A stretch of 46,079 bases of DNA from Prosthecobacter debontii. Lineage in GTDB: Bacteria > Verrucomicrobiota > Verrucomicrobiia > Verrucomicrobiales > Verrucomicrobiaceae. Position numbers and translations under genes: made by a program. The stretch lies in assembly GCA_945860295.1 (NCBI GenBank), contig CAMAQH010000031.1, positions 1-46,079 on the forward strand, written 5' to 3'. Of this stretch, positions 36,232-41,608 are shown one piece after another. The notes beneath the pieces were generated by a model. It had not been told where the DNA came from. It saw only the letters and a list, made by a program, of their open reading frames with translations, and searched no databases. Position 1 is the first letter of the stretch. Each line of letters opens with the position of its first letter.

Positions 36232-37461
36232 TCAGAACGTGTGGATGAAAAGTCCTGAACGGAGCTTTGGCTCAAACCAGGTGCTCTTCGGCGGCATGAT
36301 CTGCGTGGCGTCGGAGATGGCCATGAGCTGATCGACGGTCACGGGATACATGCTGAAGGCTACGGCGTGGTCGCCTGCATCGACAAGCTTTTCCAACTCG
36401 GTCGTGCCGCGAATGCCGCCGATGAAGTCGATGCGCTTGCTGGTGCGCGGATCGTCGACGCCGAGCACGGGCTTGAGCAGGCGATCCTGTAGGATGCTGA
36501 CATCGAGTTCGTCGATGGGGCTGGCGTTGTCTGCTGCCTGCCACGCGAGGTCATACCATTGGCCACCGAGATACATGCTGGCATGACCGGGGATAGTCGG
36601 GGATTTGATCTCGGTCGGTGTGACGGTGAAGATGCTGCTGACTTCAGCCAGGAAGGCTTCTGTCGTGCGGCCGTTTAGATCCTTCACGGCGCGGTTGTAG
36701 GGCAGGATGTTTAGCTCATTGCCGGGGAAGAGCACGCAGAGGAACCAGTTGTAATCCTCAGCGCCCGTGTGGCTTGCATTGCGCTCGCGGCGCAGCTTGC
36801 TAACGCGGAAAGCACTAGCAGCACGATGATGGCCATCGGCGATGTAGGAGGCAGGAACTTCAGTGGCAAAGAGCTGCTCCAATTGCTGGCAGGACTCTGC
36901 TGGCAGACGCCAGGATTGGTGACGAACGCCATCGGGCGCTAGGAAATCATGATCAGCTGCGTGAGCCTGCATTTGGCCCTGAATAATCGCATCAATGGCT
37001 GGCTGGCCACGATAGGTCAGAAAAATCGGTCCTGTGTTTCCGCTCAAGGCATCCACCAGACGGGTGCGGTCATCTTCTTTGTCGGGGCGTGTCTTCTCAT
37101 GCTTCTTGATGATGTCTTTTTCATAATCCTCCGTGTGGCAGACGCCCACGAGACCGGTTTGACTGTGGCTACCCATCGTCTGCCGATAGAGATACAGGCT
37201 CGGCGCGGCTTCACGCACCAGCACGCCATCGGCCACGAGCTTATCCAAGTTCTCATTAGCCTTCGCATAGACCTCAGCTGAGTAAGGATCGACTGACAAA
37301 GGCAGGTCGATCTCTGCCCGGTCCACATGCAGCAGGTTCAAAGGCTTATCGTGAGCGAGCGCGTAGGACTCCTCGCGATTGACGACATCATATGGCACAG
37401 CAGCAACATCTGCGGCGTGCTGTGGAGTAGGGACAAGACCTTGAAAGGAACGAAAGCGCAT
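36232..37461 (-). CDS. DUF1015 family protein
   Basis: A 409-residue cytoplasmic protein of the DUF1015 family, which resembles ParB/sulfiredoxin-fold proteins and includes members called serine-kinase-like; its activity here is unproven. Signature phrases are VAAVPYDVVNREESYALA, DIIKKHEKTRPDKEDDR, NTGPIFLTYRGQPA, VPASYIADGHHRAASAF and PYNRAVKDLNG. The start MRFRSFQGLVP fits the family. It reads divergently from the membrane-protein gene at 37595; that intergenic space holds a palindrome. Confidence 0.88.
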   Translation of the reverse strand: MRFRSFQGLVPTPQHAADVAAVPYDVVNREESYALAHDKPLNLLHVDRAEIDLPLSVDPYSAEVYAKANENLDKLVADGVLVREAAPSLYLYRQTMGSHSQTGLVGVCHTEDYEKDIIKKHEKTRPDKEDDRTRLVDALSGNTGPIFLTYRGQPAIDAIIQGQMQAHAADHDFLAPDGVRHQSWRLPAESCQQLEQLFATEVPASYIADGHHRAASAFRVSKLRRERNASHTGAEDYNWFLCVLFPGNELNILPYNRAVKDLNGRTTEAFLAEVSSIFTVTPTEIKSPTIPGHASMYLGGQWYDLAWQAADNASPIDELDVSILQDRLLKPVLGVDDPRTSKRIDFIGGIRGTTELEKLVDAGDHAVAFSMYPVTVDQLMAISDATQIMPPKSTWFEPKLRSGLFIHTF

Positions 37462-37536
37462 AAGGCGCGCATGGTTGACGGCAAGGGCAGGAAGTCAACG
37501 GCGGAGACAGGTTGGAGGTGCTTCTCAAGCACCGAG

Positions 37537-37551
37537 CTTTGTTTCGCAAAG
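37537..37551. promoter_or_regulatory. CTTTG-N5-CAAAG palindrome, upstream copy
   Basis: CTTTG-TTTCG-CAAAG, 15 bases long, lies 44 bases before the ATG of the membrane-protein gene. The same 15-base form recurs at 38566-38580, just after the winged-helix gene. Position and repetition suggest the operator of that regulator, with autoregulation. This is an inference. Confidence 0.5.
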
Positions 37552-37594
37552 TTGGCCGCTAGTAGGCTTGGCTCTATGCTGCAAATTGATACGC

Positions 37595-38242
37595 ATGAGC
37601 AGCCAGCAAGCCGCCCTCGAAAACCTGCGTGTGATCCGATCACTGATGGAGAAAGCCCACATCTATCGGGCAATCTCAGCTCCGGCGGCGTTGGTAGGCG
37701 GAGTGCTGGCGGTGGGTGTTTCGCTATGGGGCATGGCGGCTTTCACGAAGATCAATGACATGCCGCATGATCAGTTTCTGTGGCAGTGGCTAAGCGTCCT
37801 TGCCGTCACTTCTGTCCTGAATGTTGTTTTACTCTCCCGTGATGCGCGTCGTCGCGGCCAGCCCTTTTTGTCGGATGGGATGCGCATGGCGTTACGGGCG
37901 ATTTTGCCGCCGATGATGGTGGGATGTGTCCTGGGCATCGGGCTGGTAGTGTATCTGCACAATCTGACCCTGGCGGCGCTGATCTGGATTCTTTGTTACG
38001 GGCTGGCACTGCTGGCGACTGCGAGCTTTTCGCCGCGTTCTTTGCTGTGGCTTGGCTGGGCGTTTGTAATCAGCGGACTGACTCTGTTTCTGGTCTGGGC
38101 GGCCAATGGCGACATCCGCCTGTTGCCGACCGATGAAGGCCCGGCTTCCTTCGCGATGGGTGTGACCTTTGGACTGCTGCACATCGTGTATGCCATTGCA
38201 GTGTTTGTGAGCAAGAAACCGGAGGTCGTCACGGCGGAATGA
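37595..38242 (+). CDS. Integral membrane protein of unknown function
   Basis: A 215-residue protein with about six hydrophobic segments (around residues 27-47, 65-80, 95-115, 120-138, 145-165 and 185-203). I chose the ATG at 37595; a longer frame starting at 37475 adds 40 residues with no membrane-protein character. Function not recognised. Its stop overlaps the start of the winged-helix regulator (ATGA), so the two are coupled. The conserved membrane-protein/ArsR-like regulator pairing suggests that the regulator controls it, or that the membrane protein modulates the regulator. Confidence 0.75.
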   Translation: MSSQQAALENLRVIRSLMEKAHIYRAISAPAALVGGVLAVGVSLWGMAAFTKINDMPHDQFLWQWLSVLAVTSVLNVVLLSRDARRRGQPFLSDGMRMALRAILPPMMVGCVLGIGLVVYLHNLTLAALIWILCYGLALLATASFSPRSLLWLGWAFVISGLTLFLVWAANGDIRLLPTDEGPASFAMGVTFGLLHIVYAIAVFVSKKPEVVTAE

Positions 38243-38538
38243 TCGACTTCAACCAGCTCGACAAGACGATCCACGAGAAGGCGCGTCTCTCGATCATGAT
38301 GCTGCTGGCCGGGCGTGGTGAGTGGGCTTTCCAGGATCTGAAGGCGCAGCTTGGCATGAGCGATGGCAATCTGATCAGCCACCTGCGCATCCTGAGCGCG
38401 GTTGGATTTGTGATTGAAGATCGTGATGAATCCGGCACGCGGCCCCGCACGACTTACAAGCTCACGTCGGCGGGCCGCAAGGCCTTCAAGAGCTACGTGG
38501 ACATCCTGGAAAGCATCGTGAAAGCCATGAAGCCATAA
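38239..38538 (+). CDS. Winged-helix transcriptional regulator (HTH_34 type)
   Basis: A 99-residue DNA-binding protein of the winged-helix family resembling ArsR/MarR-type regulators. The recognition helix region reads FQDLKAQLGMSDGNLISHLRIL, and the wing follows with GFVIEDRDESGTRPRTTYKLT. A dimerisation helix ends the chain (SYVDILESIVKAM). It probably binds the CTTTG-N5-CAAAG palindromes flanking the cassette. Translation is coupled with the membrane protein upstream. No cysteines suggestive of metal sensing are visible. Confidence 0.88.
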   Translation: MIDFNQLDKTIHEKARLSIMMLLAGRGEWAFQDLKAQLGMSDGNLISHLRILSAVGFVIEDRDESGTRPRTTYKLTSAGRKAFKSYVDILESIVKAMKP

Positions 38539-38565
38539 ACTCAAATCTGTTTTGTTGCCCAATCA

Positions 38566-38580
38566 CTTTGTAATACAAAG
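38566..38580. promoter_or_regulatory. CTTTG-N5-CAAAG palindrome, downstream copy
   Basis: CTTTGTA-A-TACAAAG is a perfect palindrome with 7-base arms, 28 bases after the winged-helix stop and 33 bases before the ispH-like start. It matches the outer five bases of each arm of the copy at 37537-37551. It may control the ispH-like region downstream, or end the cassette. Confidence 0.5.
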
Positions 38581-38612
38581 CCAAACCACAATCAATCACC
38601 GCCAACTCTCCT

Positions 38613-39233
38613 ATGAACCTCCATTTCGCTCAACATCACGGCATGTGCTTCGGCGTCCGCGACGCCCTACGTGCCACTCATGCGGCCGCCATGCGCGAGC
38701 CGGTGACTATGCTCGGTCAACTCGTCCTTAATCTGGTGGTGGATGCGCACCTGAAGACGCTGGGAGTGAGTGCAGGAAATCTTGAACAGATGGACTCGGC
38801 GCTCACGAGTCGTGTGGTGATCACAGCACATGGATCGTCGGACAATCATCGTGCTGCTTGGCGTGCGGCTGGGCATGAGATCACGGACACGACATGCCCG
38901 CTGGTGCGGAAGGCTCACATGGCACTCTCGACGCTGGTGAAGGAGGATTATCATCCCGTCGTCATCGGGCAAAAGGAACATGTGGAGGTGCGTGGGCTGA
39001 TAGGTGATTTTCCTCAGGCCAGTGTGCTGCTGAATGCGGATGAGATCAGTTCACTGCCGAGTCATGCGTGGCATGTCGCCAGCGTTGTTTGCAGAGTTGG
39101 GCACGCTTTTAATGGAGACTTGGGCGCGCTGTCGCAAGCTGCCTCACGTGCCAGTCAAAACGGTGCGCGGATCAGGCTGGATTGCGGGTCAAATAGGGCG
39201 TGCAGGTGCGAATGCAGTCGCCCGCGCGGTTGA
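38613..39233 (+). pseudogene. ispH: ispH-like gene, 3'-truncated
   Basis: The N-terminal about 130 residues are a good 4-hydroxy-3-methylbut-2-enyl diphosphate reductase (last step of the MEP isoprenoid pathway). C12 lies in GMCFGVRDAL, as in E. coli. C94 and H101 lie in TTCPLVRKAH, and H122/E124 lie in KEHVEVRG. The third cluster Cys and the C-terminal lobe are absent: the frame turns into unlike sequence after about residue 140 and stops at 206. No frameshift was found that restores the rest. The enzyme would be inactive; an intact copy elsewhere is likely. It ends 46 bases before opgG. Confidence 0.75.
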
Positions 39234-39279
39234 CTCACTCTGGGCACGGGGCATGCTAGAGCCTCACTCTGCATCACCT

Positions 39280-40812
39280 ATGATCGTCTCCCGCGCTTCC
39301 GGCTTCCTGCTTCTTTCTCTGCTCTCTGCCTTCAGTCTTGCCAGCTACGCGGTGGACATGACGCCGATGGATGTGATGGATTTTAGTTCGCTCGAAAAGA
39401 TGGCAGCCGAGATGGCTCTGAAGCCTTATGTGGCACCGACTCAGCAGCTTGATCCTTTCTTTGAGGGACTTAAATATGACGGGCATCGTAAGATCCGCTT
39501 CCTCCGTGATAAGGCGCTCTTTGCTGACCTTGGAGATGTCTATCGCGTGGAGTTTTTCCATCCGGGTTGGATGTTTAAAAAGCCAGTCGTGTTTCACAAT
39601 ATCCAGGGCATCGAAACCAAAGGCGTGCCCTTTAGCCAGAGCCTCTTCGACTACGATGATTTGAAGGTGCCAGAGAAAGTGATCAGCCCTGCTGGCTACG
39701 CTGGCTTCCGCGTGCTGGCACCGGACTCGATGTTGAAAAAGCCTTTTGAATTCATGGTCTTCATGGGGGCCAGCTACTACCGCGCCGTGACCACCGAGCT
39801 CGGCTACGGCATCAGTGCGCGTGGTGTGGCAGTGAACACCATCGGCGGTAAGCCAGAGGAGTTTCCTGACTTCACGCACTTCTGGTTTCAGCAGCCAAAA
39901 CCGGGTGATCAATACTTCCGCGTGTATGCTTTGCTCAATGGTCCTAGCATCACTGGCGCGTATCAGTTTGATGTGAAACCAGGTAAGACCACCGAGACGC
40001 TGGTGAAGGTCACGCTGCATCTGCGTAAGCCCGTGGAGATGCTCGGCATCGCCCCATTCTCCAGCATGTTTTGGTTTGGTGAGAACAGCAATCCGAAGCC
40101 CTATGACTTCCGCCCCGAGGTGCATGACAGTGATGGCTTGCAGATCGAGGTCGATGGCGGCCCGTCCATATGGCGTCCTCTGGATGTGGGGCGCGATCTG
40201 CGTCTGAGCTTGTTTGAAATGGACAAGCTCAAGGGCTTCGGCCTCGCCGAGCGTGATCGTGATTTCAAAAACTTTCAGGACCTAGAGGCCGTCTATCATC
40301 GCCGTCCCGCCGTGTGGGTGGAGCCGACAAAGGGCTTTGGCAAAGGCGCTGTTGCACTCGTCGAGTTGTCCTCGGGTGAAGAGACTTGGGATAACATTGT
40401 CGCCATGTGGAAGCCCGCCGTGCTGCCTGCCACACCGCAGGAGCCGCTGAGCTTTGAGTATCGGCTAGCCTGGCTTGAGGAGCAGCTTCCTGGCCTGCTT
40501 TGCAAAGTCACCTCCACTCGCCGTGGTTTCGTGATGGACAGTGACGACCACCTCTACGTCGTCGATTTCACCAAAGGCGGCCTCAAGCTCGACAAGCCAC
40601 GCGAATGGGTGCCCGACATCGACGTCATCCTCAGCAACGGCGAAGCCAAAGTCTTGGACAAGCGCGTCATGTTCAATCCCGAGACCGGCGGCTGGCGTGC
40701 CTTCTTCAAGCTCGACATCCCTGCGACGACGAACCTCCTGGAAATAACCAGCGAACTCAAAGATGCCGATAAAGTCATCTCCGAGCGCTGGATGTATCAG
40801 TGGCGGAAGTAG
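39280..40812 (+). CDS. opgG: Periplasmic glucan biosynthesis protein OpgG-like
   Basis: A 510-residue protein with a Sec signal (MIVSRASGFLLLSLLSAFSL) and the OpgG/OpgD fold. In E. coli this family shapes osmoregulated periplasmic beta-1,2-glucans and is now known to include beta-1,2-glucan hydrolases (GH186). Typical stretches are FEGLKYDGHRKIRF, FHPGWMFKKPVV, GASYYRAVTTELGYGISARG, APFSSMFWFGEN, and the acidic RPEVHDSDGL. I chose the ATG at 39280 as the one that gives the signal peptide. The glucosyltransferase opgH is not in the window. The nearby ispH relic and SWIM gene offer no functional link. Confidence 0.92.
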   Translation: MIVSRASGFLLLSLLSAFSLASYAVDMTPMDVMDFSSLEKMAAEMALKPYVAPTQQLDPFFEGLKYDGHRKIRFLRDKALFADLGDVYRVEFFHPGWMFKKPVVFHNIQGIETKGVPFSQSLFDYDDLKVPEKVISPAGYAGFRVLAPDSMLKKPFEFMVFMGASYYRAVTTELGYGISARGVAVNTIGGKPEEFPDFTHFWFQQPKPGDQYFRVYALLNGPSITGAYQFDVKPGKTTETLVKVTLHLRKPVEMLGIAPFSSMFWFGENSNPKPYDFRPEVHDSDGLQIEVDGGPSIWRPLDVGRDLRLSLFEMDKLKGFGLAERDRDFKNFQDLEAVYHRRPAVWVEPTKGFGKGAVALVELSSGEETWDNIVAMWKPAVLPATPQEPLSFEYRLAWLEEQLPGLLCKVTSTRRGFVMDSDDHLYVVDFTKGGLKLDKPREWVPDIDVILSNGEAKVLDKRVMFNPETGGWRAFFKLDIPATTNLLEITSELKDADKVISERWMYQWRK

Positions 40813-40819
40813 TCATCGC

Positions 40820-40826
40820 AGGAGGT
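40820..40826 (+). promoter_or_regulatory. Strong Shine-Dalgarno site for the SWIM gene
   Basis: AGGAGGT lies 11 bases upstream of the ATG at 40838 and decides that start over an upstream in-frame ATG at 40763 inside opgG. Such a full consensus site is rare in this window. Confidence 0.7.
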
Positions 40827-40837
40827 GCGCCAATCCT

Positions 40838-41608
40838 ATGTCCTGGGACTACTACGACGCCAGAGAGCGCAAAGACAAACTCGAGCGCGCGATCTCGAAG
40901 CGGCAGAAACGCGGCGAGCGCTTTGAAGTGCTGGCTGCGCCTGCGGGTCAGAAGAAACTCAGCACCACTTTTTGGGGTCAGGCCTGGTGTCGGAATCTGG
41001 AGTCCTACCAGCAGTATGAGTCACGCCTGCCGCGTGGTCGCAGCTATCTGCGGCAGGGAAAGGTGTACAATCTGGAAATCGAATCTGGCAAGCTCAGTGC
41101 CGTGGTCGCCGGATCAGATCTGTATGAAACCAGCATTCACATCCAACCTCTGTCAAACAAGCGCTGGCAGGAAATCGTGGCGGAAGGCTCCGGCCAAGTC
41201 AGCTCAATGCTTGACCTGCTCGCTGGCAAGTTGGGAGATGGCTTGATGCAATTGCTCACTGATCCCGAGCGCGGCCTTTTCCCAAAACCCAAGGAGATCC
41301 GCTTTGACTGCTCCTGCCCCGACTACGCAGACATGTGCAAGCATGTGTCTGCTGTGCTTTATGGCGTCGGTGTGCTTTTAGATTCTAAACCCGAGCTTCT
41401 CTTCACCCTGCGCGGCGTCGATCAGGCTGAGCTCTTATCGAGCGCCAGTTCCACGACTATGGCGGATCTAGGAGGTGATGGCGAATTGGCTGGCAGTGAC
41501 TTGTCAGCTTTGTTCGGAATTAATTTCGGCACTGCCGTCGAAGTGCCAGTCGAGCCTGTGCCGGTCGTGAAATCAAAGCGGCGCGCCACCAAAAAAAGCC
41601 CGGTCTAG
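40838..41608 (+). CDS. SWIM zinc-finger protein
   Basis: A 256-residue cytoplasmic protein. The N-terminal part has the phrases FEVLAAPAGQKKLSTTFWG, AWCRNLESYQ and RGRSYLRQGKVYNLEI that accompany SWIM domains in bacteria. The zinc finger is C158-x-C160...C167-x-H169 (FDCSCPDYADMCKHV). SWIM domains bind DNA or protein, and in bacteria often pair with SWI2/SNF2 helicases, which are absent here. The C-terminus is acidic then basic (PVVKSKRRATKKSPV). Its start is fixed by a strong ribosome-binding site. Confidence 0.88.
   Translation: MSWDYYDARERKDKLERAISKRQKRGERFEVLAAPAGQKKLSTTFWGQAWCRNLESYQQYESRLPRGRSYLRQGKVYNLEIESGKLSAVVAGSDLYETSIHIQPLSNKRWQEIVAEGSGQVSSMLDLLAGKLGDGLMQLLTDPERGLFPKPKEIRFDCSCPDYADMCKHVSAVLYGVGVLLDSKPELLFTLRGVDQAELLSSASSTTMADLGGDGELAGSDLSALFGINFGTAVEVPVEPVPVVKSKRRATKKSPV

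Follow-up and report, generated by a model that had tools for sequence, protein, structure and literature searches.

What do two matching palindromes control when they flank a pair of small genes in Prosthecobacter debontii? For a stretch of 46,079 nucleotides from this bacterium (henceforth referred to as the window), a sequence-only reading had described a coupled gene pair, encoding a six-helix membrane protein and a small winged-helix protein, between two palindromes of the same length and with the same arms, and had suggested a self-regulated unit that may also act on genes downstream. Both palindromes (henceforth referred to as operators 1 and 2, after the putative role deduced from their sequence and setting) were confirmed at positions 37537 to 37551 (CTTTGTTTCGCAAAG) and 38566 to 38580 (CTTTGTAATACAAAG), neither being assigned to a strand. 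They are the sole copies of CTTTG-N5-CAAAG in the window, where 0.07 copies are expected and none of 100 shuffles reached two. As had been described, one lies 5' of the pair and the other 5' of an ispH-like relic, 43 bp and 32 bp before the respective ATG codons. Over the whole 4.68-Mb genome the motif occurs five times, compared to six times for a reversed control; the motif alone is thus at chance level genome-wide, and the case for the operators rests on their position and conservation. A refined motif, CTTTGYNNNRCAAAG, occurs at two places in this genome, both at the pair, and its reversed control at one. A promoter scan of positions 37400 to 38700 found no sigma-70-like promoter at either operator, and the same region contains four terminator-like sites (1.3 expected).

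The membrane-protein gene (37595 to 38242, forward strand, ATG at 37595; 215 aa) and the regulator gene (38239 to 38538, forward strand; 99 aa) share 4 bp (ATGA, 38239-38242). The coupled pair that had been proposed is upheld by this overlap, by an AlphaFold model of the membrane protein with six main helices (mean pLDDT 90.8) and by the match of the regulator to the Pfam family PF13601 (HTH_34), of which it is a member with 76 bits over residues 16-94 (gathering cut-off 27 bits). The regulator, a proposed autorepressor, scores below the cut-offs of the SdpR autorepressor model NF033789 (16.3 bits, cut-off 100) and the ArsR/SmtB metalloregulator model NF033788 (33.8 bits, cut-off 55), and it consists of the winged-helix domain only, with no effector domain. 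Of the solved structures, PH1061 (PDB 1ub9; E 1.5e-15) is the best match to the aligned regulators and has the same domain by profile; it is titled a hypothetical protein and is not known to have an operator or regulon. The membrane protein, a proposed sensor or anti-repressor, matches no Pfam family above cut-off. Searches with its model gave a best E of 0.18 in Foldseek and, in VIA-align 2, a best Z of 8.2 (rmsd 5.6, 182 residues aligned) to a helical filament; these and other middling matches (rhodopsins, receptors, designed bundles) were read as common helix packing, and the fold searches yielded no clue to function. The protein is homologous across classes, with S28, G36, W65, P105, W131, G136 and P147 invariant in 46 sequences. 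A DUF1015 gene (36232-37461 in the window) is divergent from operator 1 and starts ~75 bp away from it. Neighbours encoding DUF1015, PQQ and MdoG proteins were rejected as parts of the system, being matched in only one (locus L036), one and two of 40 family loci, respectively, some of which are short.

If the palindromes belong to the pair they should accompany it in other genomes, and the motif was found at most homologous pairs instead of being missing beside them. Of the distinct Verrucomicrobiota sequences compared, 103 of 124 upstream of the pair and 96 of 129 downstream of it contain CTTTG-N5-CAAAG; many of them come from closely related genomes, so that the counts are not independent. 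Since the best 80 relatives overlap the genomes sampled earlier, all were pooled and duplicates removed, which reduced the upstream set from 149 to 124 and the downstream set from 155 to 129. On the same sequences, 19 permutations of the arms gave at most one occurrence each, as did every spacer length from 0 to 11 other than 5. Within the family of the window, the regulator was detected in 55 of 68 genomes (E<=0.001, own genome included; the match in G054 is weak and partial). The motif is present in each of the 29 relative loci that the regulator search returned; it flanks the pair on both sides in 28, and the other, L010, ends at a contig edge. Of 40 longer family loci, 38 have an exact operator 1 (absent from L039, which is cut, and from L069) and 39 an exact operator 2 (absent from L070). 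An even draw of the phylum returned a regulator match in 40 of 387 genomes (E<=1e-12), and its distribution is therefore patchy. In a scan with one genome per species, the best 80 of 544 relatives were kept; judged by title, almost all of these belong to Verrucomicrobiota (Prosthecobacter, Brevifollis, Verrucomicrobium, Haloferula, Roseibacillus, Methylacidiphilales) and one is labelled Bacteroidetes, and the refined site lies within the locus in 79 of the 80 and an IspH-like match near the pair in 74.

IspH (LytB, HMBPP reductase) is the last step of the MEP pathway, which supplies the isoprenoids from which carrier lipids and pigments are built. In most relatives, operator 2 precedes a short second IspH of ~280 aa (henceforth referred to as IspH2), which is additional to the long IspH and exceeds the cut-off of the IspH model TIGR00216; IspH2 differs from the familiar enzyme in being a second copy under a dedicated putative operator. 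In the family, 53 genomes contain both the regulator and the short IspH (the relic in the window counted), one the regulator only (G032, a partial match), none the short IspH only and 14 neither, with G054 scored as lacking the regulator and relatedness ignored. Poor assemblies may lie behind the missing regulator and short IspH in G035 and G057. Of 40 family loci, 35 have a ferritin-like (AurF/Rubrerythrin-related) gene 3' of ispH2, the source of the query included.

In the window, ispH2 is reduced to a relic (38613 to 39233, forward strand) with ~150 homologous N-terminal residues, which scores 89.9 bits over residues 5-142 against TIGR00216 (cut-off 187.85) and in which the position equivalent to H41 is Leu and those equivalent to T167 and C197 are absent. 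The break (39032 to 39220, assigned to no strand) spans ~190 bp where the nearest relative, L036, has ~1.27 kb comprising the C-terminal half of ispH2 and the ferritin-like gene (1285-2073 from the regulator start in L036), both of which are lost in the window; the blastn blocks shared with L036 correspond to positions 38239-39031 and 39221-40992. The dN/dS of the remaining half compared to L036 (~0.13) is similar to that between the intact copies of L036 and L037 (~0.15), and the loss therefore looks recent. The IspH2 target has probably been lost lately in the window, with the pair and both operators intact, though the break may instead be an assembly fault. No operator was found at the long IspH of the same genome, where the best match within the locus has three mismatches.

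The sites also precede ispH-like genes remote from the pair, which supports the suggestion that a self-regulated unit may act on other genes. In three genomes of the same order (G244, G368 and G312), an IspH-like gene with one or two operators just 5' lies elsewhere in the genome, and in L308 (titled Haloferula luteola) an extra gene separates the pair from the IspH-like gene, which has two operators 5' of it. The IspH-like proteins beside the pair and at relocated genes, leaving out the truncated copy in the window, comprise 73 distinct sequences. Of these, 58 resemble IspH/LytB in retaining the three cluster cysteines as well as eight more active-site residues. In departure from that enzyme, two or all three cysteines are absent from 13 (the relocated proteins of G368 and G312 lack the cysteines) and two are 100-aa C-terminal pieces, with two more such pieces in L289 and L298. 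The 100-aa proteins (L293:6345-6644, L282, L289 and L298) correspond to the C-terminal third of IspH only and lie 3' of operator 2. Conserved proteins without the cysteines are found under one or two operators (L169:9227-10075, L166, L312, L313, L319, L320, L299, L337 and L338), in genomes of the same order, several titled Akkermansiaceae, and where operators are paired they are mostly 57-85 bp apart. For five such forms, pairwise dN/dS was ~0.13-0.18 in those eight of ten pairs for which dS was finite, although dS is near saturation, and this points to purifying selection on the cysteine-less forms.

The identity of the putative target changes with the pathway used. In 24 distant genomes (23 regulator matches from the rest of the phylum and G397), the gene for HMG-CoA synthase follows the pair in ten, with one gene between in L150; the protein of L147, for example, matches TIGR01835 with 480.6 bits. 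Each of these ten genomes encodes an HMG-CoA reductase and gave no match for IspH. The remaining 14 show the opposite, with IspH present and the reductase missing; IspH exceeds the curated cut-off in 12 of them and falls short of it in G375 and G440. All ten synthase genomes have a site with one mismatch or none in front of the pair or, in L153, between the regulator and synthase genes. An exact operator precedes an ispH-ispG operon in G126 and G402, which belong to one family, and no exact site was found at nine other distant IspH loci (L339-L347). This match between putative target and pathway is our main reason for reading the module as a regulator of isoprenoid supply.

Other genes appear under the same sites. 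Within the family of the window, a two-gene operon for membrane proteins of no known family follows tandem operators 22 bp apart in G013, G016, G017, G035, G036, G039 and G040, and a single operator in G001. The spacing of the tandem sites is exactly 22 bp in the loci L107:4861-6412, L108, L109, L114, L323, L324 and L335. Similar membrane operons follow single operators in G090 and G254, from another class, homology having been tested for G254. The membrane protein of the window showed no homology to one protein of this operon, and a search of the window's genome for the second protein of the operon gave no match, in a search run without a control and hence uninformative. In G144 and G383 (same class; L172 and L173), both operators flank the pair with no IspH after operator 2, 3' of which lies a gene for a 561-aa protein, or genes for 113-aa and 511-aa proteins; each of these genomes has a single long IspH, and both cases weigh against the proposed regulon. 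An operator also precedes a 383-412-aa membrane protein in G432 and G349 and, as single cases, an exosortase-like gene (G159), a YjbQ-like gene named by eye (G126) and a gene for a 245-aa protein in L146, dolichol/phytol-kinase-like by eye and without a Pfam or NCBIfam match. Among the loci inspected, 18 with extra sites looked unrelated. The 4.1-Mb genome G397 (loci L221-L240 and L163) contains 74 CTTTGYNNNRCAAAG sites, with none for the reversed control; a large regulon was rejected, 33 of 35 inspected sites lying inside mechanical ORFs of at least 80 aa. The G397 sites often read ACTTTGCNNNGCAAAGT and form a dispersed palindrome.

We consider it likely that the pair serves as control module for a small isoprenoid-supply regulon, which would combine autorepression, isoprenoid targets and a membrane sensor and which has lost its IspH2 target in the window. 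The 99-aa winged-helix protein would bind CTTTGYNNNRCAAAG as a dimer and repress its own operon, and would control those isoprenoid-precursor genes that have the site or lie within its operon, both steps being well supported. The genes controlled would be that for IspH2 in the family of the window and numerous relatives, ispH-ispG in a single distant family and the HMG-CoA synthase gene in mevalonate users. Polytopic membrane proteins would be further targets in several genomes. Much more tentatively, and by analogy, the translationally coupled membrane protein might sense the state of the membrane or of lipid carriers and relieve repression, our guess being that it could do so by holding the regulator at the membrane. 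The model for this is SdpR/SdpI of Bacillus subtilis, where, according to an excerpt of PMC1626106, SdpI sequesters SdpR at the membrane. The layout is of the same type, in that a conserved palindrome precedes genes for a regulator and a polytopic membrane protein, and autorepression, established for SdpR, is a proposal here. Several features differ: the regulator is an HTH_34 protein whose score falls well short of the SdpR cut-off, it is encoded after the membrane gene, its usual targets would be isoprenoid genes and not toxin immunity, and sequestration is conjecture.

The palindromes could in principle be chance occurrences, or form an RNA hairpin or terminator, as the near-equal counts of motif and reversed control in the window's own genome might suggest. 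The conservation at a fixed position compared to the permuted controls contradicts this, provided that the loci were compared in the right register, and we reject chance given 0.07 copies expected in the window and at most one hit for the permuted motifs. The flanks of the family's sites are poorly conserved (0.14-0.46 bits per column; the 2.0 bits of the arms hold by construction, the rows having been chosen on the arms), which favours the operator reading. The spacer speaks against a hairpin: it begins with Y in 220 of 235 sites and ends with R in 234. These inner bases are independent of each other and form the non-pairing combination C..A 68 times among the 235, as would be expected of two protein half-sites but not of an RNA stem. 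With inner positions frequently unpaired and sites lying 5' of gene starts, the hairpin is likewise rejected and this explanation as a whole is barely credible. It is somewhat less improbable, though still very unlikely, that the palindromes are the sites of a different, unlinked regulator that the HTH_34 protein simply adjoins. Binding by the latter is a prediction from sequence; moreover, nine distant loci (L145, L156-L158, L161, L164, L175, L176 and L178) have no match with up to two mismatches in the two scanned windows (an exact site lies further off in four, at -1131 in L157, -1179 in L164, -966 in L175 and -428 in L176), and G035, a fragmentary assembly, has tandem sites before the membrane operon and no regulator match. 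Against this, sites and regulator gene remain together down to 34-35% regulator identity, and site counts track the presence of the gene, averaging 2.57 per genome (control pattern 1.52) in the 54 family genomes with the regulator and 0.64 (control pattern 0.93) in the 14 without it.

What the module senses is a separate matter. IspH and IspG are [4Fe-4S] enzymes, and this, together with the ferritin-like gene that follows ispH2 in most family loci, raises the alternative that the signal is iron-sulphur or oxidative stress and that the regulon repairs or replaces oxygen-sensitive steps. We regard this as unlikely because the partner of the pair in mevalonate users, HMG-CoA synthase, is not known to be an Fe-S enzyme and because operators are kept at IspH forms without the cluster cysteines. 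A possibility to which we give more weight, while still doubting it, is that the membrane protein is an output, such as an isoprenoid-lipid carrier or envelope protein, and that the signal reaches the regulator from elsewhere. An output would suit both the location of the membrane protein under operator 1 and the nature of the further candidate members of the regulon, which include other polytopic membrane proteins of no known family. The domain content of the regulator argues the other way, since a protein with a winged-helix domain only must receive its signal via a partner or a small ligand, and so does the position of the membrane gene as the regulator's regular neighbour, with the 4-bp overlap in the window.

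A limited literature search, judged by title or by the start of the abstract, found no description of this system. The review PMC13001223 lists feedback on Dxs among the controls acting on the MEP pathway; its main text does not contain 'transcription factor', 'transcriptional regulat' or 'repress'. PMC10663253 terms IspG and IspH evolutionarily rigid and gave no hit for 'paralog' or 'second copy'. It is conceivable, though we would not bet on it, that a sensor-repressor was kept as a module while its target followed the pathway (HMG-CoA synthase in mevalonate users, IspH in MEP users), and that the presumably dead IspH descendants under the same operators, both the full-length forms without cysteines and the 100-aa pieces, would serve as non-enzymatic parts of the circuit, for example by sensing metabolites or by partnering the housekeeping IspH. 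If the proposed regulon is real, a repressor whose target follows the pathway would be a direct handle on how the supply of carrier lipids is matched to the demands of the envelope in bacteria, and possibly a biosensor for isoprenoid engineering, and IspH pseudoenzymes under purifying selection would form a new class.
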